Shown here in pieces: positions 5,277 through 60,773 of a stretch of 64,000 nt of DNA. The notes under the pieces are model-generated. The model was given only the letters and a program-made list of their open reading frames with translations. It searched no databases and had not been told where the DNA came from. Source of the stretch: Echinarachnius parma (lineage: Eukaryota > Echinodermata > Echinoidea > Clypeasteroida > Echinarachniidae); NCBI GenBank assembly GCA_037951105.1, contig JBAMJV010003042.1:461060-525059 (forward strand), written 5' to 3'. The first letter of the stretch is position 1. Each line of letters opens with the position of its first letter. The position numbers and the translations under genes were made by a program.

Positions 5277-6925
5277 ATTTTGAATTCGTCACTTTTGACG
5301 AATTAAGGTTATACATATCGAATTCTTATGATAAAAGCATTATTCCAAAAATAAATACTCAATCATCATATAAATAATATCACATACCCCCCCCCCCCCC
5401 TAATAAAAAGTAAAAAAGAAGAAAAAAGAAATTTAAAAAATATTGTCTTGGATTCGAACCCACGACCCTTAGATCTTGCGTCACAACTTGTTCCACGAGA
5501 CCAACATTAGATCTCTTAACGAAAATGGGAAATCGGGAACGATATATCAGTGATTGCACACTGCATTTGTCATTGTAACAGTGAATTATTTGACCTTTGA
5601 ACCTAATTTACATTTCCTTAACGCCATTTTCATAATCCGATCTTATCTTATGAAAATTTTTCCTTTCATTATAACCTACATGTGTGCTGAATTTCATGTC
5701 CACGGCGTACGTGGTTATTCATGCTTGATTTATTTGACCTTTGACGGTAAATATGGCGATGAAATATGCATTTTTGCGATTTGGTGTTAACTTATGAAAT
5801 GTTGGGCTTGCAAGTCCCTATCTACATGCGAAGTTTCACATTGGTAGCATAATTCTTTCAGCAGTTATAGGTCGAAAGCATACGTTTTAGCTAACCCTCA
5901 ATTTTTAACAGATTTGGACTCTCATTTCCAATCAAACAATTCATCAGGATCCAGTGAACAAAACTAAATGGTGTAAATAGATTGTGAATAGAGCAGGACA
6001 TCAGCTACGATATATCAACATTTGGGAGCACATTGATGGAGAATAAGCGTGATATGGTCAAAAGCACACTGTGATCGATTTCAACATTGATTGAAAGTGA
6101 TTAAAATTCGCATTTTCAACTTTAACCGTCAATACGATGACTTTATAACATTTACTCGGCATAAATGAGGTATGAATTCGTATCTACAACTCATAATATA
6201 TCCGAATATTAAAAGATAATTGGATGTTTGTGGACTTTTTAAAAAGTTATGGCCGAATAAAAAAAGGATGTTTTTACCATGTTTTGCCATTTGCGTGCGC
6301 GCGTAATTTTGACTTTGACGCGCACGTACTCCGTTATTATGAGTCAACAATGACTCAAATTGATAGGGTGTGTTGGGGGATCTATAAGGAATGCAAAACA
6401 TGTGAAAAAACGACAATTTTCCTATTCATTCGCGTTACGCGCGCAAATACGCGCGCGCCGACGCGCACGCGCGGAATTTTTTGAAACGCTTAAAATTGTC
6501 TGAAACATATAGTAAATTACTAGGGTTGGGGTTTTGAACATTTTTTGACATTTTTTTTCATTTGACGGACGCGTACGCGCGCGTCTCCGAGTGTAATTGC
6601 ACGCGCATGAGCTTAAAAGATGACCATTGACCTGATCAATATTGATGCGAAATTTGAATTGAAATTGATATATCATGACTGAGATATGATGATTATTGAA
6701 ATTTGTCAAAATGGCGTCCTGATGACGTTATTGTGATGTGACGTCACTGAAAAAGTTAGCAGATCTAAGTTAGATCATGATCTATCATCATGTGAAGATT
6801 CATGACAATTGATTCATGTGATCTTGAGATATGCGACGAACAAAATTGATGGGAAGAATAAATAAATAATAAAAATTCTAACAAAATCAATAGGTTATAC
6901 ATATGTATATGTATAACCTAACTAG
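5277..6925 (+). repeat. Array unit 1, type B (1649 bp)
   Basis: Full-length type B. Junction hairpin at about 5281-5302, poly-C run at about 5389-5400, tRNA-derived segment on the minus strand, body of ~120-180 bp degenerate phrases, one 'GGCATAAATGAGGTATGAATTCG' type module near 6160, paired AP-1 palindrome at 6340-6357, CpG-rich blocks at about 6295-6330, 6427-6475 and 6565-6610, TGACGTCA at 6739-6746, 28-bp palindrome at 6892-6919, CTAG at 6922-6925. The first of the two usual CRE-like sites is decayed (TGACGTTA). Confidence 0.88.
5443..5512 (-). other. tRNA-derived segment in unit 1
   Basis: On the minus strand, an A-box-like TGGTCTCGTGG (5493-5503) lies about 40 nt upstream of a perfect B-box GGTTCGAATCC. 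The acceptor arms do not pair convincingly, so this is a tRNA-derived (SINE-like) remnant and not a functional tRNA. Confidence 0.65.
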
Positions 6926-7082
6926 ATGTTGAATTCGTCACGTTTGACGAATTAAGGTTATACATATTGAAATTACGATATGATGATATTGACTCTTCAA
7001 CGCGTAATATGATGATGTCATAATATTTACTTGGCATAAATGAATGACACAAAATAGGGTAACAATATTAATTCATAACTAG
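6926..7082 (+). repeat. Array unit 2, type A stub (157 bp)
   Basis: Contains only the junction hairpin and the first ~140 bp of type A, and ends directly in ATAACTAG. Full type A units continue ATAAC then AAAAGGGGAGG, so the stub was probably made by joining at shared ATAAC with a hairpin-less unit end. Confidence 0.85.
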
Positions 7083-8610
7083 ATGTTGAATTCGTCACAT
7101 TTGACGAATTAAAGGTTATACATATTGAAATTACGATATGATGATATTGACTCTTCAACACGTAATATGATAATGTCGTAACATTTACTTGGCATAAATG
7201 ATGACACAAAATAGGGTAACAATATCAATTCATAACAAAAGGGGAGGGGGGAGCTCTTAAATTGACCAAAATGACTGTAAAATGGCTCTGTACCTGACGT
7301 CTTATTTCAACCATATCACACCTTTCCTTTGGCCGATTTTGACCCGGTTTTCAGTATGTTAAAGCTGAGTTTCCGCTACGCTATCGCGATTTTCGAGTTT
7401 ATTTCACGATTAGAGCACGGGAACAGGTCGTAATTGAAGGTTGAACTTTTTTTTTCTTTATCGTGCACTATGATGACTTTACAAAATCTGATTGGCCAAT
7501 GTTAAAATTGTAAAAATATGTGCAACTCATACTCTTTCAGAATATGAAAAAAATATTTGTATATTTCCATGTATCAAAGAAGTTGTGACCGTTAAGAGAA
7601 GTGCATGTTTGACCAGATTTAGCCAATTTTCACACTCTTTGCGCGATTTCAACTTTAACCGGTCAATTCGATGACTTTAGAAGATTTACTCGGCATAAAG
7701 CAAGTATGAATTCGTATCTACAACTCATAATCTACCCAAATATTCAAATAAAATTGGGTTTTTGTCGATTTTTGAAAAAGTTATGGCCGAATTCAAAAAG
7801 GATGTTTTGACCATATTTTGCCAATTATTTGATTTAAACTGTTCGCCCTTAGATGTTAGATGGCGCTATACAGACTTAGCCAATTTTCACACTCGTGCGC
7901 TTTTTAAATCTTAACGGTCAATATGATGACTTTGTAACATTTACTCGGCATAAATGAGGTATGAATTCGCATCTACAACTCATAATCTTTCCGGATATTC
8001 AAAGAAATTTGCGAGTTTGTGGACTTTTTAAAAAGTTATGGCCGATAAGAGACCAGACTTGGGAAATTTTCACACTCGTGCGCTATTTAATTTTTAACCG
8101 TCAATATGATGACTTTATAACATTTACTCGGCATAAATGAGGTATGAATTCGTATCTACAACTCATAATCTATCCGAATATTAAAAGAAAGTTGGGTTTT
8201 TGTGGACTTTTAAAAAAGTTATGCCCGAATAAAAAAATGGTTGTTTTTGAGCATTTTCAGATTTTAAGATCCTTGGACGAGCGCGTACGCGCTTCTTACG
8301 TGGCGCATGCGTATGCGCATAATCGGAAAAGTTGCCACTCGGCCTGATAACTATTGGTGCCAAATTTAAAGGGAAATAGAAGATGCATGACTGAGATACA
8401 TCCATGAATGAAATTTCACAAAATGGCGTCCCGATGACGTCACGAAGAGTCGGCGGCACTCAAAAGTTTGGCAGTTCTAAGTTAGACCAAGATCTATCAT
8501 CTGGCAAAGTTTCAGGACAATAGCTGCACCCGTTATTGAGGTATCCGACGAACAAAATCCTTGTTTTCGTGTCTCTATGCATTGGCATACAGACACAAAA
8601 ACAATACTAG
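7083..8610 (+). repeat. Array unit 3, type A (1528 bp)
   Basis: Full-length type A. Modules begin near 7472, 7670, 7928 and 8107 (each around ATGATGACTTT...ACATTTACTCGGCATAAA). It has the NF-Y-like GATTGGCCAATG near 7490, the CpG/NRF1-like block near 8280-8325, TGACGTCA near 8436, and the 3' hairpin GTGTCTCTATGCA / TGGCATACAGACAC ending 10 nt before CTAG. Confidence 0.9.
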
Positions 8611-10137
8611 ATGTTGAATTCGTCACATTTGACGAATTTAAGGTTATACATATTGAAATTACCATATGATGATATTGACTTTTCAACGCCTAATACGATA
8701 ATGTCGTAACATTTACTTGGCATAAATGAATGACACAACATAGGGTAACAATATTAATTCATAACAAAAGGGGAGGGGGGAGCTCTTAAATTGACCAAAA
8801 TGACTGTAAAATGGCTCTGTACCTGACGTCTTATTTCAACCATATCACACCTTTCCTTTGGCCGATTTTGACCCGGTTTTCAGTATGCTAAAGCTGAGTT
8901 TCCTCTACACAATCATTTTTTCGATTTTATTTTACGATTTGAGCACGGGAACAGGTCGTAATTGAAGGTTGAACTTTTTTTTTCTTTATCGTGCACTATG
9001 ATGACTTTACAAAATCTGATTGGCCAATGTTAAAATTGTAAAAATATGTGCAACTCATACTCTTTCAGAATATGAAAAAATATTTGGATATATTCATGTA
9101 TCAAAGAAGTTGTGACCGATAAGAGAAGTGCATGTTTGACCAGATTTAGCCAATTTTCACACTCTTTGCGCGATTTCAACTTTAAGCGGTCAATTCGATG
9201 ACTTTAGAAGATTTACTCGGCATAAAGCAAGTATGAATTCGTATCTACAACTCATAATCTATCCAAATATTGAAATAAAATTGGGTTTTTGTCGACTTTT
9301 GAAAAAGTTATGGCCCAATTAAAAAAGGATGTTTTTACCATATTTGGCCAATTATTTGTTTTGAAGTGTTCGCCGTTAGATGTTAGATGGCGCTGTTCAG
9401 ACTTAGCCAATTTTCACACTCGTGCGCTTTTAAAATCTTAACGGTCAATATGATGACTTTGTAACATTTACTGGGCATAAATGAGGTATGAATTCGCATC
9501 TACAACTCATAATCTTTCCGGATATTCAAAGAAATTTGCGAGTTTGTGGACTTTTTAAAAAGTTATGGCCGATAAGAGACCAGACTTGGGAAATTTTCAC
9601 ACTCGTGCGCTATTTAATTTTTAACCGTCAATGTGATGACTTTATAACATTTACTCGGCATAAATGAGGTATGAATTCGTATCTACACCTCATAATCTAT
9701 CCGAATATTAAAAGAAAGTTGGGTTTTTGTGGACTTTTAAAAAAGTTATGCCCGAATAAAAAAATGGTTGTTTTTGAGCATTTTCAGATTTTAAGATCCT
9801 TAGACGAGCGCGTACGCGCTTGTTACGTAGCGCATGCGCATGCGCATAATCGGAAAAGTTGCCACTCGGCCTGATAACTATTGGTGCCAAATTTAAAGGG
9901 AAATAGAAGATGCATGACTGAGATACATCCATGAATGAAATTTCACAAAATGGCGTCCTGATGACGTCACGAAGAGTCGGCGGCACTCAAAAGTTTGGCA
10001 GTTCTAAGTTAGACCAAGATCTATCATCTGGCAAAGTTTCAGGACAATAGCTGCACCCGTTATTGAGGTATCCGACGAACAAAATCCTTGTTTTCGTGTC
10101 TCTATGCATTGGCATACAGACACAAAAACAATACTAG
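8611..10137 (+). repeat. Array unit 4, type A (1527 bp)
   Basis: Full-length and collinear with unit 3. It carries the longer palindromic GCGCATGCGCATGCGC near 9833, where unit 3 has a point change (GCGCATGCGTATGCGC). An internal 92-codon minus-strand open frame recurs in many type A units but is broken in others. Confidence 0.9.
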
Positions 10138-11812
10138 ATGTTGAATTCGTCACATTTGACGAATTAAGGTTATACATATCGATTTTTTATGATAAAAGGA
10201 TGATTCCAAAAATAACTACTCAATCATCATATCAATAATAATAGATTCTCCCCCCACCCCCCCCCCACCCCCCTGCAAAAAGGAAAAAAAAAAAAGAAAA
10301 GAAAGTTAAAAAATATTGCCTTGGATTCGAACCCACAACCTTTGATCTTGTGTCACAAATTATACCGCGAGACCAACATTAGATCTCTTAACGAAAATGG
10401 GAAATCGGGAAAGATACATCAGTGATTGCACACTGCACTTGTCATTGTAACAGAGAATTATTTGACCTTTGAACCTAAATTACATATCCTTAACGCCATT
10501 TTCATAATCCGATCTTATCTTATGAACATTTTTCCTTTCATTATACCATACATGTGTGTTGAATTACATGTCCGCGGCGTACGTGGTTATTGAGTATTCA
10601 TGCTTGATTTATTCGACCTTTAACGGTAAATATGACAATGAAATATGCATTTTCGCGATTTGGTGTTAACTTATGAAATGATGGGCTTGTAAATCCCTAT
10701 CTACATGCGAAATCTCAAATTGATAGCATAATTCCTTCAGCAATTATGTCGATAACATACGTTTTGGCTAACCCTCAATTTGTAACAGATTTGAACTCTT
10801 ATTTCCAATCAAACAATTCATCAGGATCCATTGAACAAAACTAAATGGTGTGAATAAATTGCGAATAGAGCAGAACATCAGCTACGATATACCAAAATTT
10901 GGGAGTACATTGATGGAGAATAAGTGAGATATGGTCAAAAGTACACTGTGATCGATTTCAACATTGACTGAAATTGAGTAAAATTCGCATTTTCAAATTT
11001 AACCGTCAATACGATGACTTTATAACATTTACTCGGCATAAATCAGGTATGAATTCGTATTTACAACTCATAATCTATCCGAATATTAAAAGACAATTTG
11101 GTGTTTGTGGACTTTTTAAAAAGTTATGGCCGAATAAAAAAAGTATGTTTTTACCATATTTTGCCAATTTGCGTGCGCGCGTAATTTTGACTTTGACGCG
11201 CGCGTACTCCGTTATTATGAGTCAGCAATAACTCAAATTGATAGGGTGTGTTGAGGGATCTATAAGGAATGCAAAACATGTGAAAAAACGACAATTTTCT
11301 TATTCATTCGCGTTACGCGCGCAAATACGCGCGCGCCGACGCGCACGCGCGGAATTTTTTGAAACGCTTAAAATTGTCTGAAACATATAGTAAATTACTC
11401 GGGTTGGGGTTTTGAGCATTTTTTGACATTTTTTTTCATTTGACGGACGCGTACGCGCGCGTCTCCGAGTGTAATTGCACGCGCATGAGCTTAAAAGATG
11501 ACCATTGACCCGATTAATATTGATGCGAAATTTGAATTGAAATTGATAAATCATGACTGAGATATGATGATTATTAACATTTGACAAAATGGCGTCCTGA
11601 TGACGTCATAGTAATGCGACGTCACTGAAAAAGTTTGCAGATCTAAGTTAGATCATGATCTATCATCATGTGAAGATTCATGACAATTGATTCATGTGAT
11701 CTTGAGATATGCGACGAACAAAATTGATGGGAAGAATAAATAAATAATAATAATAATAAAAATTCGAACAAAATCAATAGGTTATACATATGTATATGTA
11801 TAACCTAACTAG
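10138..11812 (+). repeat. Array unit 5, type B (1675 bp)
   Basis: Full-length type B with an interrupted poly-C tract (about 10250-10273), minus-strand tRNA-derived segment, AP-1 pair near 11217, with one mutated arm (CAATAACTCA), CpG blocks, two CRE-like sites (the first at 11601-11608, the second altered to CGACGTCA), an ATA/AATA microsatellite just upstream of the 28-bp palindrome, then AA and CTAG. Confidence 0.9.
10319..10380 (-). other. tRNA-derived segment in unit 5
   Basis: B-box GGTTCGAATCC is intact and the A-box-like sequence reads TGGTCTCGCGG (10365-10375). The intervening loop region differs from unit 1 (CACAAGATCAAAGG in place of CGCAAGATCTAAGG). Confidence 0.62.
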
Positions 11813-13194
11813 ATTTTGAATTCGTCACTTTTGACGAATTAAGGTTATACATATTGAAATTTCGATATGATGATATTGACTTTTCAACGCGTAATATGAT
11901 GATGTCATATCATTTACTTGGCATAAATGAGGTATGAATTTGTATCTACAACTCATAATCTATCCGAATATTAAAAGAAAATTGGGTGTTTGCTGACTTT
12001 TTAAAAAGTTATGGCCGAATAAAAAAAGGACGTTTTTACCATATTTTGCCAATTTGCGTGCGAGCGTAATTTTGACTTTGACGCGCGCGTACTCATTTAT
12101 TATGAGTCAACAATGACTCAAAATGATAGGGCGAGTTGAGGGATGTATCAGGATTGCTAAACATGTGAATAACGGCATTTTTCGTATTTATTTGCGTTAC
12201 GCGCGCAAATACGCGTGGCAGACTAATCACAATTGTATAGAGACACATTATAATTCCTGAATTCATACTGTTGGGTAATTCAAACCGCAGCACTTTTAAA
12301 GCATAACCTCAGGTACAACATATCGAAATCTAGGAGAAAATCAATGGAAAATCAGCGAGATATGGTCGAAAGTCTGCTGTGATTGATTTCAACATCGATT
12401 AAAATCAGTTAAAATGCGCATTTTCAACTTTAACCGTCAATATGATGACTTTACAACATTTACTCGGCATAAATGAGGTATGAATTTGTATCTACAACTC
12501 ATAATCTATCTGAATATTAAAAGAAAATTGGGTGTTTGTGGACTTTTTAAAAAGTTATGGACGAATAAAAAAAGTATGTTTTTACCATATTTTGCCAATT
12601 TGTATGCGCGCGTAATTTTGACTTTGACGCGCGCGTACTCCGTTATTATGAGTCAACAATGACTCAAATTGATAGGGTGTGTTGAGGGATCTATAAGGAA
12701 TGCAAAACAAGTGAAAAAACGACAATTTTACTATTCATTCGCGTTACGCGCGCAAATACGCGCGCGCCGACGCGCACGCGCGGAATTTTTTGAAACGCTT
12801 AAAATTGTCTGAAACATATAGTAAATTACTCGGGTTGAGGTTTTGAGCATTTTTTGACATTTTTTTTCATTTGACGGACGCGAACGCGCGCGTCTCCGAG
12901 TGTAATTGCACGCGCATGAGCTTAAAAGATGACCATTGACCCAATTAATATTGATGCGAAATTTGAATTGAAATTGATAAATCATGACTGAGATATGATG
13001 ATTATTAACATTTGACAAAATGGCGTCCTGATGACGTCATAGTAATGTGACGTCACTGAAAAAGTTTGCAGATCTAAGTTAGATCATGATCTATCATCAT
13101 GTGAAGATTCATGACAATTGATTCATGTGATCTTGAGATATGCGACGAACAAAATTGATGGGAAGAATAAATAAATAATAATAATAATAACTAG
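11813..13194 (+). repeat. Array unit 6, A/B chimera without 3' palindrome
   Basis: Begins with type A sequence for ~110 bp, changes at the GGCATAAATGAGGTATG module into a B-like body, and includes a middle segment (about 12205-12420, CAGACTAATCACAATTG..) otherwise seen only in unit 8. It repeats a B module and ends AATAATAATAACTAG with the 28-bp palindrome missing. Confidence 0.85.
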
Positions 13195-15286
13195 ATGTTG
13201 AATTCGTCACGTTTGACGAATTAAGGTTATACATATTGAAATTACGATATGATGATATTGACTTTTCAACGCGTAATATGATAATGTCGTAACATTTAAT
13301 TGGCATAAATGAATGACACAAAATAGGGTAACAATATTAATTCATAACAAAAGGGGAGGGGGCAGCTTTTTAATTGACCAAAATGACTGTAAAATAGCTC
13401 TGTACTTGACGTCTTATTTCAATCATATCACACCTTTCCTTTGGCCGATTTTTGCCAGGTTTTCAGTATGTTAAAGCTGAGTTTCCGCTACACATTCATT
13501 TTTAGATTTTATTTTACGTTCTAAGCACGGGAACAGGGCCAAATTGAAGGTTGAACTTTGTTTTGACTTTATCGTGCAATATAATGACTTTAGCAAATCC
13601 GATTGGCCAAGGTTACGTATTTAATAATATCTACAACTCATACTCTTTAAGATTATGAAAAAATATTTTGGGATTTCCATGCAAGGAAGAAGTTATTGCC
13701 GATAAGAGATGGGCATGTATTACCAGATTTAGCCAATTTTCGCACATTTTCTAGCGAACGGAGGAATACGGGATTTACAGTCTGCCGTTGGGGGCGCTAG
13801 ACCACTTCACGACACGGTGTTGTTTGTCGATAATTTGTAAATACAAATAAATTAGGTATTTTAATGTTTGAGCTCTGAAAATTGATTATAATTTGAATTT
13901 CAATGACTGATAATATATCTGGGCCATTGTTAAATTGGCAGTCATCATCTTTTAACAGTAATTTACAAGTGTAGTGTGCTGAATGACAAGTCCGTGGTTA
14001 TTGAGTATTTATGCTTGATATATTTGACATTTGACGGTTAATAAGACAATGTAATATGCATGTTCGCGATTTTGTGTTAACTTATGAAATGTTGGACTTG
14101 CAAGTCCCTATCTACATGCGAAATTTCAAATTGATAGCATAATTCCTTCAGCAGTTATAGGTCGATAACATACGTTTTGGCTAACCCTCAATTTGTAACA
14201 GATTTGAACTTTTATTTCCAATCAAACAATTCATCAGGATCCAGTGAACAAAACTAAATGGTGTGAAAAGATCACGAATAGAGCAGGACATCAGCTACGA
14301 TATATCAAAATTTGGGAGTACATTGATGGAGAATAAGCGAGAAATGGTCAATAGTACACTGTGATCGATTTCAACATTGATTGAAATTGATTAAAATTCG
14401 CATTTTCAACTTTAACCGTCAATACGATGACTTTATAACATTTACTCGGCATAACTGAGGTATGAATTCGTATCTACAACTCATAATCTATCCGAATATT
14501 AAAAGAAAATTGGATGTTTGTGGACTTTTTAAAAAGTTATGGCCGAATAAAAAAAGTATGTTTTTACCATATTTTGCCAATTTGCGTGCGCGCGTAATTT
14601 TGACTTTGACGCGCGCGTACTCCGTTATTATGAGTCAACAATGACTCAAATTGATAGGGTGTGTTGAGGGATCTATAAGGAATGCAAAACATTTGAAAAA
14701 ACGACAATTTTTCTATTCATTCGCGTTACGCGCGCAAATACGCGCGCGCCGACGCGCACGCGCGGAATTTTTTGAAACGCTTAAAATTGTCTGAAACATA
14801 TAGTAAATTACTCGGGTTGGGGTTTTGAGCATTTTTTGACATTTTTTTTCATTTGACGGACGCGTACGCGCGCGTCTCCGAGTGTAATTGCACGCGCATG
14901 AGCTTAAAAGATGACCATTGACCCGATTAATATTGATGCGAAATTTGAATTGAAATTGATATATCATGACTGAGATATGATGATTATTAACATTTGACAA
15001 AATGGCGTCCTGATGACGTCATAATAATGTGACGTCACTGAAAAAGTTTGCAGATCTAAGTTAGATCATGATCTATCATCATGTGAAGATTCATGACAAT
15101 TGATTCATGTGATCTTGAGATATGCGACGAACAAAATTAGGAAGAAGAAAAAATAAATAATAATAATAATAATAATAATAAAAATCTTGACGAAATCAAG
15201 AGGTTATACATATGTATATGTATAACCTAATAAAAATTCGAACAAAATCAATAGGTTATACATATGTATATGTATAACCTAACTAG
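13195..15286 (+). repeat. Array unit 7, A-C-B chimera (2092 bp)
   Basis: Type A 5' third; then from about 13745 to 14000 a diverged relative of the type C middle (AGCTCTGAAAATTG.., ATCTGGGCCA..); then a type B body and end. AP-1 pair near 14632, CpG blocks and CRE pair present. Two complete 28-bp palindromes (15201-15228 and 15253-15280) precede CTAG at 15283-15286. Confidence 0.85.
15201..15280. repeat. Doubled 3' palindrome of unit 7
   Basis: Two perfect palindromes with arms AGGTTATACATAT separated by about 24 bp, each preceded by its own AAATCAA leader (one from the CTTGACGAAATCAA variant, one from the ATTCGAACAAAATCAA variant). Only the second is followed by CTAG. Confidence 0.92.
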
Positions 15287-15463
15287 ATGTTGAATTCGTC
15301 ACGTTTGACGAATTAAGGTTATACATATCGATTTATTATGATAAAAGGATGATTCCAAAAATAACTACTCAATCATCATATAAATAACATTATATACCCC
15401 CCCCCCCCCCCCCAATAAAAAGAAAAAAATAAGAAAAAAGAAAGTAAAAAAAAATATTGCCTT

Positions 15464-15532
15464 GGATTCGAACCCACGACAATTAGACAGACTTAAGATC
15501 TAGAGTGACAGATTCGTACCACGACACCAGCC
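15464..15532 (-). other. tRNA-derived segment in unit 8
   Basis: B-box GGTTCGAATCC retained. The region between the boxes is different and longer than in other units (contains TCTAGATCTTAAGTCTG), and the A-box-like sequence reads TGGTGTCGTGG, so this copy may derive from a separate tRNA-like source. Confidence 0.55.
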
Positions 15533-16453
15533 CTTGTTCACTTGACAGAGATAAACAAATGATGGAATATGAGTAAAAGATTGCACTCTGCATTTGCCAA
15601 TACAAGATACAACTCATAATCTATCCGAATATTAAAATAAAATTGGGTGTTTGTGGACTTTTAAAAAAGTTATGGCCGAATAAAAATACAATGTTTTTAC
15701 CATATTTGGCCAATTTGCGTGTGCGCGTAATTTTGACTTTGACGCGCGCATACTCCGTTATTAGGAGTCAACAATGACTCAAATTGATAGGGTGAGTTGA
15801 GGGATGTATCAGGATTGCAAAACATGTGAAAAAACGGCACTTTTCCTATTTATTTGCGTTACGCGCGCAAATACGCTTGGCAGACTAATCACAATTGTAT
15901 AGAGACACATAGTTCCTGAATTCATATTATTAGATAATTTAAACCACAGCACCTTTAGAGTATAACCTCAGCTACAACATATCGAAATCTGGGAGAAAAT
16001 AAACGGAGAATAAGCGAGATATGGTCGGAAGTCTGCTGTGATTGATTTCAAAATCGATTAAAATAAGTTAAAATGCGCATTTTCAACTTTAACCGTCAAT
16101 ATGATGACTTTATAACATTTACTCGGCATAAATGAGGTATGAATTCGTATCTACAACTCATAATATATCCGAATATTAAAAGAAAATTGGGTGTTTGTGG
16201 ACTTTTTAAAAAGTTATGGCCAAATAAAAAAATGATGTTTTTACCATATTTTGCCAATTTGCGTGCGCGCGTAATTTTGACCTGATAAATATTGATGCGA
16301 AATTTGAATTGAAATTGATATTTCATGACTGAGATATGATGATTATTAAAATTTGACAAAATGGCGTCCTGATGACGTCACAGTCATGTGACGTCACTGA
16401 AAAGTTGGCAGTTCTAAGTTAGAACATGATCTATCATCATGTGACGATTCATG

Positions 16454-17546
16454 ATATGTGACCGGCTCTGTCACTTTGGGGAATTCATCGGGAATATCAA
16501 AATTGAGATTGTTAGTGTTTTGAATTCTCTAGGATTTCAGCTTTAAAATGATATACAACTTGATAAGTATGAGTTTCTTGAAGGCTAGAAAAACGCAAAT
16601 TAATAACATGGACCAGAGCCCCGTGATTTGTCAAACAACGGAGAAAATCGCTTCTAAAGTTTTGCATCCATTCAGAAAAGCATTCTCACACACCGAGCGA
16701 GAAGTTGAACGGTTCGCTTTCACCTTTCCGCTTTTCGTAATCGATCAGCAAACGAAATAATGCATGCACAGTTATACTGTTATTTATCGGCCAATCAGCA
16801 ACGCTTACGCCGGTATTACGTAATTGTACAAAGCCTCAGCCCTAAGTCTCAGTTGATCGACAAACTAGCCCATGTGCTGCCCTTTGATGTGCATGTATTA
16901 CAACCGCGGTGTATTGTGTATGTACGTACCGCCATAACCCACCGCATCATATTCACCATACCGCCGCTGTACCACCGGTAGACAAAAGAAAAGCGCAGCT
17001 TGATACCGTATGATATGGTACGCTGCACACGCACACTGCACACTTGCGGCATGCCCAGCGCGATTCAATGCGGTACCCATAGAATTATAAACAAACCAAC
17101 TACTCGTTTACTATACAGTAAGTTAAATGCCGCGAACGCTTCCTGGAAATGTACAACACACGGGCAATACAACTCTATTCAGGTTAGTCTGACCAATCAC
17201 TGTACAGGTACAGTGCTTTCTTCTTGCAGCTCGCCGCGGCGGCACGGTCGAATCACACACACATAGCTGGCGCGTTCGTTTCACAATCGATCATGATCAG
17301 CCAGCGCGGATTTACTGAGTTTCTGGTCGAAACCGAAATGAAGGTTGCTTAGAAAAATCATTATTTACGGCATAAAAAATTAGATTAAGGACCTGAAATT
17401 TTCAGAGAATGTAGATGAAACATGTAAGTATCAAATCCCATAAAGTTAACAATTTCAGCCAAAGACAATATTTTATGATTTTGAGGCTCTAAGTACTAAA
17501 GACCCATCCCGACTTTACACCCATTCTCTGGGAGCCGGTCTCATAT
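16454..17546. mobile_element. GTGACCGGCTC-ended DNA element (1,085 bp)
   Basis: The element 16458-17542 begins GTGACCGGCTC and ends GAGCCGGTCTC (inverted match 10 of 11). ATAT occurs on both sides (16454-16457 and 17543-17546), and deleting element plus one ATAT restores the uninterrupted TTCATGATATTTGATTC of other type B units. Open frames at 16548-16760 and 17000-17266 show no recognisable transposase features. Likely a non-autonomous DNA transposon; superfamily not assigned. Confidence 0.75.
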
Positions 17547-17637
17547 TTGATTCATCTGATCTTGAGATAATCGACGAACAAAAGTGAGGGGTAGAATAAA
17601 GAAGAAGAAGGAGAAAAAAAATTCGAACAAAATCAAT

Positions 17638-17727
17638 AGGTTATACGTATGATATACGTATAACCTAAAACTCTTGACGAAATCAATAAGGTTATACATA
17701 TGTATATGTATAACCTATGTATAACCT
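17638..17727. repeat. Doubled 3' palindrome with compensated change (unit 8)
   Basis: The first palindrome has arms AGGTTATACGTAT and ATACGTATAACCT, so the A-to-G change in one arm is matched by T-to-C in the other. The second is the common form. A third partial arm (ATGTATAACCTT) follows at 17717-17728. Confidence 0.88.
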
Positions 17728-19283
17728 TACAAATGACGTAGTAAAGATCATGTTATCATTCAAAAAGAGCCGTTAAAACGTAAGAGGGCGCTCTCTAAAC
17801 ACTCATCGGTTTCAACCATATTGAATAAAATATTGTGCATGTGATGTTTTGTTGAAATAGTGATTAGATAGAGAAATAACCAACAACTATTTAAATACCT
17901 ATTTTGTAACTTTTTGAAAAGAGGAAGCATTTTTTTAAAATTGTTAACGGCTGCTTCAAAATTCTCTAATAAACCTGGGGCCCCAGCTTCATTACAAATT
18001 GTTATATTTATGGATATTTCAGCCGTCTCTGAACCGATTTTGATCAAACAAAGATGATTTTATTATTTAAATATTATGCTCTTTCAAATTTTACACTCAG
18101 TTTTTCATTACCTCACAAAATAATAAGTAGTCTAGCGCCCTCTCTACCAAAACTCAACTATCCCTTAAAGTGTGATAAAATCCGAATCTTAGTATCGTTC
18201 AATGTAGGCATAATGATAGAATGTCAACTAACGCCATCAGCACGCCAGTAAAATGTGGCCTAAATTCTCGGCCCATCCGCGCCACAACGCTGGGTTGGAC
18301 ATTGGCTCGACAAGGCCGATATGCCGTGCAGATGTGAGCTCGCGTAGCTTTTGCACGCAGCGTATGCGGTAAAAATAAAATATATGTGGTAAAAGATCTC
18401 TGTATTTCTAACTACTAAATTTCAAAGCAGTTTTTTGTTCCCTAATATTTACATTAACAGATACGTTATCATACATGTATATTATTTCATATGGTAGATG
18501 ATTAGTCCGTGTTTTTCAATTGTTAGTGCGTGAGGCGTTTCAAAATATTATATTTGGCTTTAACTCATATTAGGCCATAGTTATATAGAGTTCTACACGC
18601 CCGGATATGGTTCATTTATCTTCCATATATCTCACGAAGAGAATAACGTGTAAAAGTTAATGTCAATTCCGACAATACCATGAACTTATTCTAAAAATCA
18701 CCGTTCAAACAACTTCATACACATCTACAAACTGCTATTTGTGTACGCGTATCCAAAGCTCTGATCAACTAGATAAGGAAATAACAACCGGATATGTTAT
18801 TCTTTAGCGTGCAGTGCAGATCGATTAGCTTTCCTAAGGTCAAAGCAACATATTTGGATTAGGTTGTAAAAACACAAAGTCTTATTAGAAATTTCCCACG
18901 AGTTAAATCCCTAATTTGTTTAGCTGCTGTCCTCATGACCTGGGACCCGTTATTGCAATGTGCTTCCTCCATAAATTATGTACTTGATAAGGATCACAAT
19001 CCTCGAAACTTACGTTGAACTCTTGCGGTTCTCACATATCTCGTTGTATTTGTATTAATAATATAAGCATGGGCAGTTTTTGTTTTGTTTTTCTTAAATT
19101 ATTTGGTTATAAAGATATGTATGATTAAAGGGTTCAGATTTACATGTATATGCTAGATCATAACCGTGTAGAAAGTCGGTGAAATGAGTGATAGTAAATA
19201 TCACTCGCATTGCAGTTTTGCTCATTACTCGGTCATATGACGTTCATTTACCATGGAATGCTCTCACATCACTCAGATGATAT

Positions 19284-46428: not shown

Positions 46429-46466
<38 letters not shown>

Positions 46467-50412: not shown

Positions 50413-52041
50413 ATGTTGAATTCGTCACTTTTGACGAATTAAGGTTATACATATCGATTTATTATGATAAAAGGATGATTCCAAAAATAACTACTCAATC
50501 ATCATATCAATAATAATAGATTCCCCCCCCCCCCCCTGAAAAAAAAGAAAAAAAAAAGAAAAAAAAGAAAGTAAAAAAATATTGCCATGGATTCGAACCT
50601 ACGACCCTTTGATCTTGTGTCACAAATTATACCGCGATACCAACATTAGATATCTTAACGAAAATGGGAAATTGGGAAAGATACATCAGTGATTGCACAC
50701 TGCATATGTCATTGTAACAGTGAATTATTTGACCTTTGAACCTAAATTACATATCCTTAACGCCATTTTCATAATCCGATCTTATCTTATGAACATTTTT
50801 CCTTTCATTATACCATACATGTGTGCTGGATTACATGTCCGCGGCGTACGTGGTTATTGAGTATTCATGCTTGATTTATTTGACCTTTAACGGTAAATAT
50901 GACAATGAAATATGCATTTTCGCGATTTGGTGTTAACTTATGAAATGATGGGCTTGCTAATCCCTATCTACATGCGAAATCTCAAATTGATAGCATAATT
51001 CCTTCAGCAGTTATAGGTCGATAACATACGTTTTGGCTAACCCTCAATTTGTAACAGATTTGAACTCTTATTTCCAATCAAACAATTCATCAGTATCCAG
51101 TGAACAAATCTAAATGGTGTGAATAGATTGCGAATAGAGCAGGACATCAGCTACGATATATCAAAATTTGGGAGTACATTGATGGAGAATAAGCGAGATA
51201 TGGTCAAAAGTACACTGTGATCGATTTCAACATTGATTGAAATTGATTAAAATTTGCATTTTCAACTTTAACCCTAAATATGATGACTTTATAACATTTA
51301 CTCGGCATAAATGAGGTATGAATTCGTATCTACAACTCATAATCTATCCGAATATGAAAAGAAAATCGGATGTTTGTGGACTTTTTAAAAAGTTATGGCC
51401 GAATAAAAAAAGGATGTTTTTACCATATTTTTGCCAATTTACCATATTTTGCCAATTTGCGTGCGCGCGTAATTTTGACTTTGACGCGCGCGTACTCCGT
51501 TATTATGAGTCAACAATGACTCAAATTGATAGGGTGCGTTGAGGGATGTATAAGAATTGCAAAACATGTGAAAAAACGACAATTTTCTTATTCATTTGCG
51601 TTACGCGCGCAAATACGCGCGCGCGGACGCGCACGCGCGGAATTTTTTGAAACGCTTAAAATTGTCTGGAACATATAGTAAATTACTCGGGTTAGGGTAT
51701 GGATAATTTTTAATTTTTTTTTTTCATTTGACGGACGCGTACGCGCGCGTCTCCGAGTGTAAGCGCACGCGCATGAATTTGAAATATGACGATTGACCTG
51801 ATTTATATTGAAGCGAAATTTGAAGTGAAATTGATAATGCATGACTGAGTTATGATGATTATTGAAATTTGACAAAATGGCGTCCTGATGACGTCACAGT
51901 GATCTGACGAGATTAAAATGATTACGTTGCACTAAGTCAGATGATGATCTATCATCATGTGAAGTTTCATGACGATTGATTCATCTGATCTTGAGATATG
52001 CGACGAACAAAATCGGAAGAATAATAATAATAAATAACTAG
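50413..52041 (+). repeat. Array unit 27, type B, palindrome missing (1629 bp)
   Basis: Complete type B body with a local duplication of TTTTGCCAATTTACCATA near 51425-51455 and a GCGCGCGGACGCGC block variant. It ends AATAATAATAAATAACTAG without the 28-bp palindrome. Confidence 0.88.
50587..50646 (-). other. tRNA-derived segment in unit 27
   Basis: B-box GGTTCGAATCC intact, preceded by GTA rather than GTG; A-box-like sequence TGGTATCGCGG. Confidence 0.58.
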
Positions 52042-53715
52042 ATTTTGAATTCGTCACTTTTGACGAATTAAGGTTATACATACTGAAAATACTATAATAT
52101 GGTATTACATGTATATTGCCTTTTCAACAGGAAATATGATGATTTAAGTACATTTATTGATATAAATGAATTTCACAAAAAGGGTACAAATATTAATTCA
52201 TAACATTCAATTGTAATCCAAATTGGAGTGGGAAGCTCTTAAATTTACCAAAATGACTGTAAAATGGCTCTGTACTTGACGTCTTATGTTTGACCAGATT
52301 TAGCCAATTTTCACACTCTTGCGCGATTTCAACTTTCAACCGTCAATTCGATGACTTAATAACATTTACTCGGCATAAATGAGGTATGAATTCGTATCTA
52401 CAACTCATAATCTATCCGAATATTAAATAAAATTGGGTGTTTGTGGACTTTTTAAAAAGTTATGGCCGAATACAAAAAGGATGTTTTACCATATTTTGCC
52501 AATTTGCGTGCGCGCGGACAGATTTTTGAATTATCCGCCGATAGATGGCGCTATTCTACACTCCAAATCATGGTCGTAATTGAAGGTTGAACTTTTCTTT
52601 TACTTTATCGTGCACTATGGAGACTTTACAAAATCGGATTGTCCATTGTTAGGTATGTAAAAATATGTGCAACTCATACTCTTTCAGAATATGAAAAAAT
52701 ATTTGGATATATCCATGTCTCAAAGAAGTTATGACCGATAAGAGAAGGGCATGTTTGACCAGATTTAGCCAATTTTTACACTCGTGCGCGATTTCAACTT
52801 TAACCGTCAATTCGATGACTTTATAACATTTACTCGGCATAAATGAGGTATGGATTCGTATCTACAACTCATAATCTATCCGAATATTAAAAGAAAATTG
52901 GGTGTTTGTGGACTTTTTAAAAAGTTATGGACGAATAAAAAAAGTATGTTTTTATCATATTTTGCCAATTTGCGTGCGCGCGTAATTTTGACTTTGACGC
53001 GCGCGTACTCCGTTATTATGAGTCAACAATGACTCAAATTGATAGGGTGTGTTGAGGGATCTATAAGGAATGCAAAACATGTGAAAAAACGACAATTTTA
53101 CTATTCATTCGCGTTACGCGCGCAAATACGCGCGCGCCGACGCGCACGCGCGGAATTTTTTGAAACGCTTAAAATTGTCTGAAACATATAGTAAATTACT
53201 CGGGTTGAGGTTTTGAGCATTTTTTGACATTTTTTTTCATTTGACGGACGCGTACGCGCGCGTCTGCGAGTGTAATTGCACGCGCATGAGCTTAAAAGAT
53301 GACCATTGACCTGATTAATATTGATGCGAAATTTCAAATGAAGTTAATGATGCATGACTGAGATATGATGATTATTGAAATTTGACAAAATGGCGTCCTG
53401 ATGACGTCATTGTAATGTGACGTCACTGAAAAAGTTAGCAGATCTAAGTTAGATCATGATCTATCATCATGTGAAGATTCATGACAATTGATTCATGTGA
53501 TCTTGAGATATGCGACGCACAAAATCAGGAAGAAGAAAAAAGAAATAAATAATAATAAAAATCTTGACGAAATCAATAGGTTATACATATGTATATGTAT
53601 AACCTAATAATAAAAATTCGAACAAAATCAATAGGTTATACATATGTATATGTATAACCTAAAAATTCGAACAAAATCAATAGGTTATACATATGTATAT
53701 GTATAACCTAACTAG
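52042..53715 (+). repeat. Array unit 28, A/B chimera with triple palindrome (1674 bp)
   Basis: The first ~230 bp are a diverged type A start (ATACTGAAAATACTATAATATGG). It then has the same module order as units 11 and 23, sharing near-identical sequence with unit 23 (for example GGTATGGATTCG). The B end carries three 28-bp palindromes before CTAG at 53712-53715. Confidence 0.87.
53578..53709. repeat. Tripled 3' palindrome of unit 28
   Basis: Perfect palindromes at 53578-53605, 53633-53660 and 53682-53709, each with an AAATCAAT leader. The first leader is the CTTGACG variant, the second and third the ATTCGAAC variant. Confidence 0.93.
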
Positions 53716-55377: not shown

Positions 55378-55472
55378 ATTTTGAATTCGTCACTTTTGAC
55401 GAATTAAGGTTATACATATCGATTTAAAATGATAAAAGGATGATTCCAAAAATAACTACTCAATCATCATAT

Positions 55473-55635
55473 TCTATTTGTACATATTTTTATATTTATA
55501 TTTATCATATTAATGTATTATTGTTTTATGTATATTGTATGATGTTATATCAGGACCCCGACGAAAAAACAGTATCCTTGCTGATCAGGCTATCCTGTAT
55601 AAATATATTTGAATAAATAAATAAATAAATAAATA
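55473..55635 (+). mobile_element. LINE-like retroelement 3' fragment, truncated copy
   Basis: Reverse-complement match to the terminal part of the 1319-1753 element (for example GGCTATCCTGTATAAATATA then (AAAT)n). It interrupts the ATCATATCAATAATAATAGATT stretch normally seen before poly-C. The longer copy extends ~270 bp further 5', so this one is 5'-truncated. No clean target duplication is visible. Confidence 0.82.
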
Positions 55636-57181: not shown

Positions 57182-58784
57182 ATTTTGAATTCGTCACTTT
57201 TGACGAATTAAGGTTATACATATCGATTTATTATGATAAAAGGATGATTCCAAAAATAACTACTCAATCATGATATCAATAATAATAGATTCCCCCCACC
57301 CCTGAAAAAAGAAAGAAAAAAAGAAGAAAAAAAGAAAAAATATTGCCTTGGATTCGAACCCACGACTCTTTGATCTTGTGTCACAAATTATACCACGAGA
57401 CCAACATTAGATCTCTTAACGAAAATGGGAAATCGGGAAAGATACATCAGTGATTTCACACTGCATTTGTCATTGTAACAGTGAATTATTTGACCTTTGA
57501 ACCTAATTTACATATCCTTAACGCCATTTTCATAATCCGATCTTATCTTATGAACATTTTCCTTTCATTATACCATACATGTGTGCTGAATTTCATGTCC
57601 GCGGCGTACGTGGTTATTGAGTATTCATGCTTGATTTATTTGACCTTTAACGGTAAATATGACAATGAAATATGCATTTTCGCGATTTGGTGTTAACTTA
57701 TGAAATGATGGGCTTGAAAATCCCTATCTACATGCGAAATCTCAAATTGATAGCATAATTTCTTCAGCAGTTATATGTCGATAACATACGTTTTGGCTAA
57801 CCCTCAATTTGTAACAGATTTGAACTCTTATTTCCAATCAAACAATTCATCAGGATCCATTGAACAAAACTAAATTGTGTGAATAGTTTGCGAATAGAGC
57901 AGAACATCAGCTACGATATATCAAAATTTGGGAGTACATTGATGGAGAATAAGTGAGATATGGTCAAAAGTACACTGTGATCGATTTCAACATTGATTGA
58001 AATTGAGTAAAATTCGCATTTTCAACTTTAACCGTCAATACGATGACTTTATAACATTTACTCGGCATAAATGAGGTATGAATTCGTATCTACAACTCAT
58101 AATCTATCCGAATATTAAAAGAAAATTGGGTGTTTGTGGACTTTTTAAAAAGTTATGGCCAAATAAAAAAAGTATGTTTTTACCATATTTTGCCAATTTG
58201 CGTGCGCGCGTAATTTTGACTTTGACGCGCGCGTACTCCGTTATTATGAGTCAATAATGACTCAAATTGATAGGGTGTGCTGAGGGATGTATAAGAATTG
58301 CAAAACATGTAAAAAAAATACATTTTTCTTATTCATTCGCGTTACGCGCGCAAAAACGCGCGCGCCGACGCGCACGCGCGGAATTTTTTGAAACGCTTAA
58401 AATTGTCTGAAACATATAGTAAATTACTCGGGTTAGGGTTTTGAGCATTTAAAAAAAAAAAAATTAATTGACGGACGCGTACGCGCGCGTCTCCGAGTGT
58501 AATTGCACGCGCATGAGCTTAAAAGATGACCATTGACCTGATTAATATTGATGCGAAATTTGAATTGAAATTGATATTTCATGACTGAGATATGATGATT
58601 ATTAACATTTGACAAAATGGCGTCCTGATGACGTCACAGTCATGTCACGTCACTGAAAAATTGGGCAGTTCTAAGTTAGAATATGATCTATCATCATGTG
58701 AATATTCATGATATTTGATTCATCTGATCTTGAGATAATCGACGAACAAAATAAGGAAGAATAAATAATAATAATAATAACTAG
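57182..58784 (+). repeat. Array unit 31, type B, palindrome missing (1603 bp)
   Basis: Full body; AP-1 arm changed (TGAGTCA-ATAA-TGACTCA near 58246). Second CRE is TCACGTCA. It ends AATAATAATAATAACTAG without palindrome. Confidence 0.9.
57349..57413 (-). other. tRNA-derived segment in unit 31
   Basis: B-box GGTTCGAATCC and A-box-like TGGTCTCGTGG both retained. Confidence 0.62.
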
Positions 58785-58957
58785 ATGTTGAATTCGTCAC
58801 TTTTGACGAATTAAGGTTATACATATTGATTTATTATGATAAAAGGATGATTCCAAAAAATAACTACTCAATCATCATAGAAATAATAGCAGATACCCCC
58901 CCCCCCCCCCCCCCTCCCTAATAAAAAGAAAAAAAAGAAAATTAAAAATGATACTGC

Positions 58958-59018
58958 CTTGGATTCGAACCCACGACCCTTAGATCTGGCGTCCCAACTT
59001 GTTCTACGAGACCAACAT
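58958..59018 (-). other. tRNA-derived segment in unit 32
   Basis: B-box GGTTCGAATCC intact; A-box-like TGGTCTCGTAG. Confidence 0.58.
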
Positions 59019-59307
59019 AACATCTCTTGTGAGAAATAGAAAATCTAGGAATATATATCAATGATTGGACTTGACGTCATTCTTTTTTCAGAAAATGAAT
59101 CATAAACACTACTTAAAGTGTTATAATCTGTAGTTTTATGCTGGATTTGGCATGAAGGTCATGCTATTTTTCATAATTAGCCGAAAGTCTGGATAAATCT
59201 GGTGAATAATAGCTTTTGTTGATTATTAAGTGCAAGTCATGCATTTTTGGAATCCTTGAGACAAGACAATTGACCGATTTATTCGCCGATAGATGGCGCT
59301 ATTACAC

Positions 59308-59932
59308 GAAAAATCCAGGCCCCCCCAACTCAAAATGGAAGTTGGGCAAATTTTTAATGAAGAGAACCACCGATTGTTATGTTAATTCGACTGGCTGCCA
59401 TGGTAATATTAGCGTAAATTCATTCATAATAATGCGCGGGCGCGAACTTCACAATTATCACGCACGAATTTATGGTATGCCTCTGTTATGACGTCACAAT
59501 GAAAAACAATATTTTGATCCTAGTAGGGAAATCCCCTGTTTCTTGACTGTGCGCAATTAAATACATGACATCGCGTAACTGTTAGTACTGCGCGTAATTA
59601 AAATAATAGAGATGAATTAGAATACTTAAGCGTCTTTGGTATTATGAAGCGCAATTTTGCTGAGAAGTGCGTGTTTAAATGCCATGGCAACTGCAAGTGC
59701 GCAATGCGTAATTACTTTAGCTTTTTGCGTAATGTGTTAATTTATCCAATGAATCCACGTCTGATAATTTATTCAAATGAAAAAAATCTGACGTACTACC
59801 TCATTTGCATGTCATTCGGCGCGTATTTTCAAAAACTTGCTGATAAAGGTGTGGCCTATCTCTGTGGTTAAAACGCTATACGCTTATTCAGTTGGGGTTC
59901 TAGTATTTATATTGTATTTCTGTGGAAAAATC
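59308..59932. mobile_element. hAT-like insertion with 8-bp target duplication
   Basis: GAAAAATC flanks the insert on both sides (59308-59315 and 59925-59932), and unit 9 has a single uninterrupted copy at the same point (ACGAAAAATCATAAG). The insert (59316-59924) begins CAGGCCCCCCAACTC and ends near GTTGGGGTTCTAG..CTGTG; inverted similarity of the ends is weak. An 8-bp duplication and a CAGG start fit hAT elements. The open frame 59644-59871 (75 codons) has no transposase features that I recognise. Confidence 0.62.
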
Positions 59933-60773
59933 ATGGAGCATTGCAGGATAATTGTAAATTGAAAACAACTAATGTATTTTAATGTTTTAGCTCTGAAAAT
60001 TGTTTCGACTGACTTCTTCGGATATTATAATATGATTTTCAATGACTAATAATTTATCTGGGCGAGCATTAAATTGATAATTCTCATCTTCTTTCCTGAA
60101 CGGCAACATGACATTTGCTTAGAAACTTCTCACAATAACTGCTATATAAAAGTTATATTTCAAGCCTGGCATTTGTGATCTTGAGGACTATGCATTGGTA
60201 ACGAGTATTAGGAGTAGCGCTCTTGTGAGTCAGCTAGTAGTAAATATATGCTTGATGGAAGTGATGGTAAGTGAGACATGTTAATACCCTTAAATAAATA
60301 AATAAAGTATTTTGTACTACTTTATCTACTTTGTATGTCCAATGTTGGGTTTTCATGGCCGTTTGACACACGCATACATGATGAATGGAGCGTGTTCGTG
60401 CGTGAGTGTTATTTTTATTAAATGGACCTCGAGTCTAAATTGTTCTAAAAGTCTACTCAGATTCTTGAACGTGCAAATAATTAATAGTTAGTTAAATACG
60501 GAAGAGTGAGTTATTTTGACATAGGAACCTAATTTATATATCCTGAACGCCATTTTCATAATCCGATCTTATCTTATGAAATGTTCCTTTCATTATAACC
60601 TACATGTGTGCTGAATTTCATGTCCGTGGCGTACGTTGTTATTGAGTATTCATGCTTGATTTATTTGACCTTTGACGGTAAATATGACAATGAAATATGA
60701 ATTTTCCCGATTTGATTTTAACTTATGAAATGTTGGGCTTGCAAATCCATATCTACATGCGGAATTTCAAGTT

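Follow-up and report, generated by a model that had tools for sequence, protein, structure and literature searches.

Tandem copies are an expected outcome of rolling-circle transposition. In plant genomes, truncated Helitrons form tandem arrays of several to several hundred repeats (Xiong et al. 2016, as reported in the portions of PMC12628747 and PMC5148889 used here). The same excerpts and similar ones describe an abutting pair of Helitrons in maize, for which serial insertion has been argued (PMC2267711), three tandem copies in Metarhizium (PMC5148889), and tandem clusters in bat and silkworm, whose size is left unstated in the passages at hand and for which terminator bypass has been argued (PMC4067079). 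Furthermore, when the Helraiser transposon loses its 3' end signal, downstream DNA is reported to be transduced as far as another terminator (PMC4778049).

Here, we describe a locus of Echinarachnius parma at which about 56 kb are filled by more than 30 small non-coding elements that are arranged head to tail and resemble rolling-circle transposons. The window, i.e. the whole stretch of DNA analyzed, comprises 64,000 nt (contig JBAMJV010003042.1, assembly GCA_037951105.1); all coordinates refer to it, and all units lie on its + strand. The differences between units suggest that most of them were added separately and with precise borders, and not by ordinary satellite-DNA duplication.

Units and borders of the array

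Thirty-two junctions of the form CTAG/AT[GT]TTGAATTC, in which the slash marks the border, are found between 5276/5277 and 58784/58785 (first CTAG at 5273-5276, last at 58781-58784). They split the region into 33 same-strand units, U0 to U32; the outermost two, U0 on the left and U32 on the right, are truncated, while 31 have borders at both sides. These consecutive units form the array core (U1-U31, 5277-58784), starting with AT[G/T]TTGAATTC (at most two substitutions allowed in the search) and ending with CTAG. In a + strand search with up to three substitutions, the 5' end was matched 32 times, in 32 of 32 cases directly behind CTAG, in support of CTAG being a genuine border of the units. 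When both strands were searched with up to four edits, - strand matches appeared only where + matches sit and the sequence is palindromic. The 3' ends at the 32 junctions comprise 16 with a hairpin (type A), 11 with a palindrome (type B) and 5 with a hairpin-less CTAG (type C), and runs tests (P = 0.19 and 0.16) gave no indication of a non-random order. Thus, the earlier note on this DNA, made from the sequence alone, was right in describing head-to-tail units with a CTAG end and a common junction, in placing their borders at CTAG and in seeing A and B units interleaved. Its array start at 5277 holds as the first junction, but related DNA extends farther left, with a truncated A unit at 4658-5276 and flanking sequence from 1074.

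At the 5' end, a hairpin with a 9-bp stem and a 4-nt loop begins at nt 7 of the unit (5283-5304 in U1; folds of three units, column counts of 32). Its stem is unbroken in 31 of 32 units, and one loop column is highly variable. The type A 3' end consists of a hairpin, a 10-nt spacer and CTAG (e.g. 8569-8610 in U3), as previously read, and is identical over the last 48 nt in 14 of 16 A-ended units. The type B end (6892-6925 in U1) indeed combines a palindrome with 2 nt (AA) and CTAG, yet the palindrome is not a perfect one of 28 bp, as perfect 13-bp arms flank a 2-nt GT center (6892-6919); all 11 B-ended units are identical over their last 42 nt. The palindrome module is present once in nine of these ends, twice in U7 and three times in U28. 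Four of the five type C ends, those of U6 (11813-13194), U24 (46517-48076), U27 (50413-52041) and U31 (57182-58784), are B ends with zero copies of the module, and the fifth belongs to U2 (6926-7082), a unit of 157 bp left over from the 5' end of an A.

Calculated with DNA parameters, hairpins of -8.7 to -12.3 kcal/mol lie within 48 nt upstream of 27 of the 32 junction CTAGs. These are stronger than the hairpin of any of 30 other scored CTAGs, the best of which reaches -7.6 kcal/mol, and therefore go beyond chance. Four other CTAGs in the captured DNA of U8 (see below) have weak or absent hairpins (0 to -3.4) and are not ends. In terms of conservation, the 10 full A units have their longest invariant run at the 3' end (81 columns, beginning at column 1484 in an alignment of 1565). 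When 29 units are compared, the top three near-invariant stretches all fall within the first 43 columns of the common 5' end; within the A interior, 44 of 140 windows reach the level of conservation of the first 46 columns. For B, special conservation of both ends was dropped because of an 84-column invariant run in the interior, in an alignment disturbed by the extra palindrome copies.

Element family and composite units

A and B had been taken for two families. They have the 5' hairpin and the central repeats in common, and 34 of 68 aligned columns are alike over their last 60 bp; by the rule in the available part of PMC4067079, applied to the 5' copy of the repeat only, they instead look like two 3'-end subfamilies of one family. 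The 10 A units compared share a mean identity of 96.6% and the 8 B units one of 92.6%, and the members of two twin pairs are 100% identical, which points to units of several ages.

The anatomy of a non-autonomous rolling-circle element of the Helentron/HINE kind, as suspected from the first reading, was recovered: a 5' subterminal inverted repeat with a hairpin near the 5' end (31 of 32 stems intact), a palindrome near the 3' end at 27 of 32 junctions, and central repeats of 177-184 bp (three copies in the A unit examined), corresponding to the tandem repeats of about 160-180 bp that HINEs may carry in their center. The units thus resemble non-autonomous Helitron2/Helentron elements (HINEs), though their 3' inverted repeat is weak. 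An inverted copy of the 5' repeat, matching in 11 of 12 bases at 35 nt from the end, is seen in U18 and U29 among 31 units tested (equalled by 3 and 1 of 300 shuffles, respectively), and A-ended units score no better than shuffled sequence (86-118 of 300 shuffles do equally well). This weakness counts against a HINE-type explanation. As for canonical Helitrons (Helitron1), in place of a 5' TC, 32 of 32 units begin with AT[G/T]TTG after CTAG, and, measured against a 3' CTRR with a hairpin some 10-12 nt upstream, CTAG is present in 32 of 32, at a spacing of 10 nt in 16 A ends and 2 nt in 11 B ends, with no hairpin in 5.

HINEs are further characterized by insertion at TT without target-site duplication, and an autonomous partner with the same ends is expected to encode a Rep/helicase/endonuclease. 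The window contains no solitary copy. All five open reading frames of at least 110 aa (ATG/GTG/TTG starts) overlap 3' parts of A type and lie on the minus strand. A Pfam scan of 10 selected frames gave no match at the cut-off (best E 0.086), and none of these 10 encodes a Rep, helicase or endonuclease of such a partner. In the 64-kb window, no Rfam match reached the gathering score and no tRNA was found; the segment 32604-33100, which contains a tRNA-like stretch of a B unit, had no Rfam match up to E = 1. Likewise, none of four patterns, namely the 5' end (with one N), the A end, the B end and the central repeat, was matched exactly in the viral contigs of IMG/VR, a collection ill-suited to eukaryote DNA.

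Several units are composites. U7 (13195-15286) and U28 (52042-53715) join an A or A-like 5' part to a B 3' part; in U11 (26139-28002), an A-like 5' part meets a B 3' part inside the central repeat, and U23 (44642-46516) is arranged like U11, to which it is 94% identical. U9 (21941-24607) comprises a B 5' end, an insert D, a B middle and an A 3' end, and the last unit, U32 (58785-60773), a B 5' end and insert D before it is cut inside the B body at the right edge.

Proposed growth of the array

The best reading, to which we assign a probability of roughly 55%, is repeated insertion of single rolling-circle products, with occasional dimers, at resident CTAG/AT junctions. The units would be copies of one non-coding Helitron2/Helentron-type (HINE-like) family whose 3' ends define the subfamilies A and B. 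An autonomous partner located elsewhere would supply the transposase, which would nick the element at its 5' end, unwind it and halt at the 3' hairpin and CTAG. Over time, the products, now and then as dimers, would insert at the CTAG/AT of resident copies, preserving orientation and junction. A/B chimeras would arise by recombination in the common central repeat, and at least one chimera type would later have been copied as a whole unit. Transposition itself, array growth by insertion and the recombinational origin of the chimeras are what we infer from these patterns. More tentatively, and at less than even odds, resident joined ends may be the preferred landing site, and the locus may be an orderly record of separate transposition events in which two terminators are mixed and compound elements, joining the 5' end of one subfamily to the 3' terminator of the other, were re-transposed. 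In the portions of the Helitron literature covered, we found no experiment on self-targeted insertion.

When junctions are compared in pairs, 0 of 496 pairs are identical over both the upstream and the downstream 60 bp (92 match upstream and 10 downstream; 1.85 double matches expected if independent); without twin copies and the left copy, the count is 0 of 406 pairs (expected 1.65). By contrast, 44 control points within units gave 78 double matches versus 25.1 expected, with 33 of the 44 above expectation. With up to two mismatches over 100 bp on both sides, the counts are 0 of 406 junction pairs (expected 2.6) and, for the controls, 223 versus 93.8. Since junctions are unlinked and points inside units are linked, the term 'satellite' fits poorly, and the view that the elements were converted into one is not upheld: head-to-tail tandem units are present (33), but duplication tracts crossing unit borders are absent, and local homogenization is not seen among A units, whose neighbors are no more alike than distant ones once each twin pair is reduced to a single member (r = -0.135, P 0.24; P 0.07 with twins kept), though B units show a weak tendency to resemble nearby B units more (r = -0.37, P 0.03). 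For 250-bp identities across A junctions, the rank correlation is 0.32 (nominal P 0.009, 65 non-independent pairs); for all 79 pairs, it is 0.16 (P 0.17), and within-unit values range from -0.02 to 0.52, a mixed picture. The similarity of B neighbors and the positive A-junction correlation count against serial insertion.

The main rival is a satellite that grew by unequal exchange, its crossovers or conversion events being focused at the hairpin/CTAG, where palindromes break easily. A recombination hotspot at the junction would likewise erase linkage there, the copy number of the palindrome module ranges from 0 to 3, the chimeras reveal recombination inside units, and the B neighbors agree with it; we nevertheless regard it as unlikely, given that the junction comparison above revealed no repeated multi-unit block and that U8 requires a left breakpoint without evident homology together with a right end exactly at CTAG.

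This compound unit (15287-21940, 6.65 kb) starts with a B 5' end and a B-derived rearranged body with B palindromes that lack CTAG (the last to 17716), followed by 34 nt, a left-flank copy from 17751, a truncated A (20905-21940) and CTAG. It takes in 3.1 kb of the array's left flank, whose other copy (1074-5276) ends in a 5'-truncated, internally deleted A with A hairpin and CTAG. The copies are 97.7% identical over 261 columns (1074-1334 vs 17751-18011) and 99.03% over 3499 columns (1743-5240 vs 17990-21487). The 99% identity ends at CTAG, with the first mismatch at nt 3 past it, and the units that follow are about 89-90% alike. A simple tandem duplication of 1074-17750 was rejected, as the units past 21940 are unlike those past 5276. 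The composition of U8 is as predicted for terminator read-through, in which a B that lacks CTAG would extend as far as the following hairpin and CTAG, here those of a truncated A. There is no B element upstream of the left copy of the donor DNA today, and this absence counts against the read-through account.

An ordinary satellite that never transposed, with incidental CTAGs and hairpins, would explain the single orientation and the long tandem run. It appears very improbable, since identity breaks at CTAG, two 3' ends go with one 5' end, the compound unit holds flanking DNA, an A fragment is fused to non-array DNA and the anatomy is HINE-like. The fused fragment, the 5'-truncated A of the left flank, also weakens, without removing, a pure-satellite origin with no solitary copies.

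The twin pairs, U12 and U13 (28003-31078, A type, 1538 bp each) and U19 and U20 (38513-41574, A type, 1531 bp each), have 0 differences, and their duplication borders lie within -5 to +46 nt and -5 to +28 nt of the junction, respectively. In U8, the aligned copies fix the CTAG/AT border to 2 nt on its downstream side; in the two twin pairs, they fix it to 28-46 nt. The twins could be assembly artefacts. Taken as real, they are what would be expected of rolling-circle concatemers, in which replication passes the 3' terminator and circles again, so that arrays are inserted ready-made and diverge later; for Helraiser, both circle junctions of the head-to-tail kind and bypass of the terminator have been documented (PMC4778049, in part). 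Such an origin of the whole array is distinctly improbable, however: 2 of the 32 pairs of neighbors are twins, the A, B and C ends come in mixed order, alternating A and B units cannot come from one circle by itself, and A neighbors lack the excess similarity noted above.

Comparison with described rolling-circle elements

With 33 units, both ends, two terminators, twins, hairpin-loss variants and an apparent read-through, rules of termination, concatemer formation and self-targeting would become legible at one locus. The array also suggests a route from transposon to satellite-like DNA without unequal crossing-over.

As far as described in the excerpts of PMC4067079 and, for the oyster Cg_HINE, PMC7492417, the closest counterparts are the non-autonomous Helentrons HINE/DINE-1. 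Like the E. parma units, they have a 5' subterminal repeat whose adjacent complement forms a hairpin, a microsatellite-like stretch (here in B), central repeats of about 160-180 bp, a 3' palindrome and no coding capacity seen. They are described as interspersed and have T-rich flanks, whereas here 31 whole units abut, with the end motif CTAG/AT and a weak 3' subterminal inverted repeat. The plant arrays are likewise tandem rolling-circle elements, but in the accounts available, many of them combine several 5' ends with one 3' end, while each of the 31 E. parma units has its own 5' end as well as a 3' end in CTAG, and two hairpin types occur. The maize, Metarhizium, bat and silkworm tandems have similarly perfect abutting junctions; those of maize and Metarhizium comprise two or three copies, compared with 33 units of mixed subfamilies, chimeras and a compound unit here, and those of bat and silkworm, known by mention, may be closer. 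Terminator bypass by Helraiser was seen in experiments with this bat Helitron, and here it is suggested by a single unit of natural origin whose end is the terminator of the other subfamily. The published tandem Helitrons, as far as these sources describe them, are pairs, triplets, clusters of unstated size and truncated plant repeats.

Array layout and unit anatomy

In the AT-rich window (35% GC), 32 plus-strand junctions, each consisting of CTAG/AT followed by G or T and TTGAATTC, run from 5276/5277 to 58784/58785 and split the region into 33 consecutive units, U0–U32, of which U0 is truncated at its left and U32 at its right. A search for the 5′ end that allowed three substitutions placed it directly behind CTAG in 32 of 32 copies. 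At the 3′ side of the units (n = 32), hairpin A is found in 16 cases, palindrome B in 11 and no hairpin (C) in five. We scored the 48 nt upstream of all 62 CTAGs in the window, 32 at junctions and 30 elsewhere: hairpins of −8.7 to −12.3 kcal/mol precede 27 of the 32 junction CTAGs, and the best hairpin at the 30 other sites reaches −7.6 kcal/mol (mean −1.9). At the cut-off of U32, a 193-bp tandem repeat begins (2.2 copies, 60772–61185); tandem repeats of 146 and 149 bp lie farther right (61432–61847 and 62884–63240).

The units open with a short hairpin of a 9-bp stem and a 4-nt loop, as seen in three folded units; the stem is unbroken in 31 of 32 units, and one loop column varies freely. Inside the units are repeats of ~180 bp, present in three copies in the one A unit examined. 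Between U3 (A) and U1 (B), the first 46 bp are common at 91% identity, the central repeats are 88–94% identical, and identity is 75% over about 250 bp toward the 3′ end; in the last 60 bp of U16 (A) and U15 (B), 34 of 68 aligned columns match. According to PMC4067079, a family is defined by at least 11 identical subterminal bases, and a subfamily by 80% identity across the last 60 bp. By this rule, with only the 5′ repeat copy compared, A and B are classed as two subfamilies of one family. B units additionally have a C-run, a stretch rich in A and, on the minus strand, a tRNA-like motif read by eye. This tRNA-like stretch (5446–5520 on the minus strand, with counterparts at similar positions in other B units) includes a B-box-like GGGTTCGAATCC and adjoins the C-run and the A-rich tract; it was recognized by neither Rfam nor ARAGORN. 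Among the stretches scanned there is no long coding frame, and among the ORFs scanned no Pfam match reached the cut-off.

Unit types and chimeras

Mapping of each unit onto U16 as the A reference and U15 as the B reference identified U3, U4, U10, U12–U14, U16, U17 and U19–U22 as full-length A, and U1, U5, U15, U24, U27, U29, U30 and U31 as full-length or nearly full-length B, three of these eight being hairpin-less. U11, U23 and U28 are chimeras, A-like in their 5′ part and B in their 3′ part, with the join in the shared central repeat. Because U11 and U23 are 94% alike though 12 units apart, this chimera type was probably copied as a whole unit. Other mosaics are U6, U7, U9 and U18, and deletions are carried by U2, U25 and U26. 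U32 and U9 have an insert, D, in common at the same place in B (59072–60510 and 22286–23112; 92–96% identical), with about 610 bp of the U32 version missing from U9.

In four of the five cases, the C end is a B end without its palindrome module; this module occurs in zero, one, two (U7) or three (U28) copies adjoining TAA repeats. Since U24 and U31 have different palindrome-bearing units, U29 and U30, respectively, as their nearest relatives in the full-length B set, the C ends represent, by this comparison, more than one lineage. No CTAG lies between the tandem modules (three copies at 53550–53711, two at 15176–15282); the hairpin-less units are the reverse outcome.

Twin units and a compound unit

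Two pairs of adjacent units show no differences: U12/U13 (1,538 bp each) and U19/U20 (1,531 bp each). Because the neighboring units on either side differ, the borders of these duplications must lie within −5 to +46 nt (U12/U13) and −5 to +28 nt (U19/U20) of the junction. Such twins would be expected from a rolling-circle dimer, or if one source had inserted twice; an assembly error is possible as well. Insertion of rolling-circle concatemers would account for the twins, but leaves unexplained why A, B and chimeric units are intermingled.

The compound unit U8 (15287–21940) starts as a B, and its rearranged body holds a 1.08-kb insert of another element (about 16458–17542). Read by eye, this insert has inverted ends GTGACCGGCTC/GAGCCGGTCTC with ATAT on either side, and it resembles a DNA transposon whose insertion duplicated 4 bp of target. 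U8 contains B-like palindromes without CTAG behind them, the last ending at 17716; 34 nt later, from 17751, a copy of the array's left flank (1074 on) follows, and a 5′-truncated A that still bears its hairpin and CTAG closes the unit. Aligned to each other, the two copies show 99.03% identity in a stretch of 3,499 columns and 97.7% in another of 261. Their identity ends at CTAG, with the first mismatch at nt 3 past it, and the units that follow are about 89–90% alike in matching pieces. Both copies carry nested inverted-repeat insertions, MITE-like by eye (3042–3791 and 19288–20038), with outer ends GGGGGTGTATTC/GAATACACCCCC and inner ends AAAGGGACTGTCC/GGACAGTCCCTTT. Two features are confined to the left copy: ~410 bp of extra DNA (about 1335–1742) and an internal deletion in A. 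The extra DNA matches, reversed, an insert in U30 at 96% over 162 bp (minus strand; 1335–1742 and 55467–55628), and the ATTT-repeat edge suggests that these inserts are 5′-truncated LINE copies.

Four further CTAGs within the captured DNA of U8 have weak or absent hairpins. The composition of U8 is what read-through predicts, namely a bypassed 3′ end and use of a downstream terminator, as described in PMC4778049; here, the terminator would belong to the other subfamily. The weak point of this reading is that no B element lies upstream of 1074 in the left copy. A 23-bp tandem duplication at the breakpoint of that copy (1031–1081) is possibly a repair scar, in which case a B could have been lost there; alternatively, both copies may derive from a third place. 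Where the A fragment meets non-array DNA, at 4658 (and 20905), an A element seems once to have had such DNA as its neighbor.

Linkage across junctions and proposed growth of the array

We compared every pair of the 32 junctions (496 pairs) for identity in the 60 bp on each side. Identity was found before the junction in 92 pairs, after it in 10 and on both sides in none, against 1.85 expected under independence; at 40 bp there were nine double-sided matches (14.1 expected), at 50 bp two (4.5 expected). Once the junctions of the twin copies and of the left copy, three in all, were set aside, none of the remaining 406 pairs matched doubly (1.65 expected), and two did when one mismatch was allowed (5.9 expected). 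As a control, we used 44 points inside units, defined by 16-mers taken from U16 and U15 in 50-bp steps and found at 8 to 40 places each, within-unit repeats included. These gave 78 double matches against 25.1 expected, with 33 of 44 points exceeding expectation. With up to two mismatches in 100 bp, junctions yielded 0 (2.6 expected) and controls 223 (93.8 expected). The deficit at junctions and the excess at control points, both counted over non-independent pairs, thus show at the sequence level that units are linked internally and unlinked across CTAG/AT. A coarser comparison, of 250-bp identities across junctions, gave a mixed outcome: rho is 0.16 for all 79 pairs (P 0.17), 0.32 for the 65 pairs of A (nominal P 0.009) and −0.05 for the 11 pairs of B; within units, values range from −0.02 to 0.52. 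Runs tests found no difference between array order and random (P 0.19 and 0.16). Similarity among A units does not clearly fall with distance when one of each twin is removed (r = −0.135, P 0.24; twins kept, r = −0.24, P 0.07), and that among B units falls weakly (r = −0.37, P 0.03).

The sequence also shows that CTAG/AT is the unit border, that duplication is unit-exact and that the compound unit is composed as read-through predicts. We infer that the units arise by transposition, that a partner transposase would supply the activity, and that the array would grow through single products inserted at resident junctions. The main rival, unequal exchange focused on the palindromes, is opposed by the structure of U8 and by the finding that no multi-unit block recurs. 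Serial insertion was also the explanation given for a maize Helitron pair (PMC2267711), and a study cited in PMC12628747 traces transposon dimers in Drosophila mainly to insertion-site preference. As PMC2267711 relays from Pritham and Feschotte, independent insertion should leave a host A between CTAG and the next start. In the array, the base right behind CTAG is an A at every one of the 32 junctions, which is suggestive, though this A may belong to the host or to the element.

Single HINE/DINE elements, the non-autonomous Helentron-type rolling-circle elements to which we liken our units, are well known with central repeats (PMC4067079, PMC7492417). Reported tandem Helitrons comprise a pair in maize (PMC2267711), three copies in Metarhizium (PMC5148889) and clusters of unstated size in bat and silkworm (PMC4067079); tandem arrays are also described in plants (Xiong et al., 2016, as summarized in PMC12628747). 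In search listings and selected passages from a library that excludes most subscription papers, we found no equally long array whose units retain a 5′ end together with a CTAG at the 3′ end, preceded by either of two types of hairpin. Whereas many of the plant arrays, according to that summary, combine a single 3′ end with several 5′ ends, the units described here keep both.
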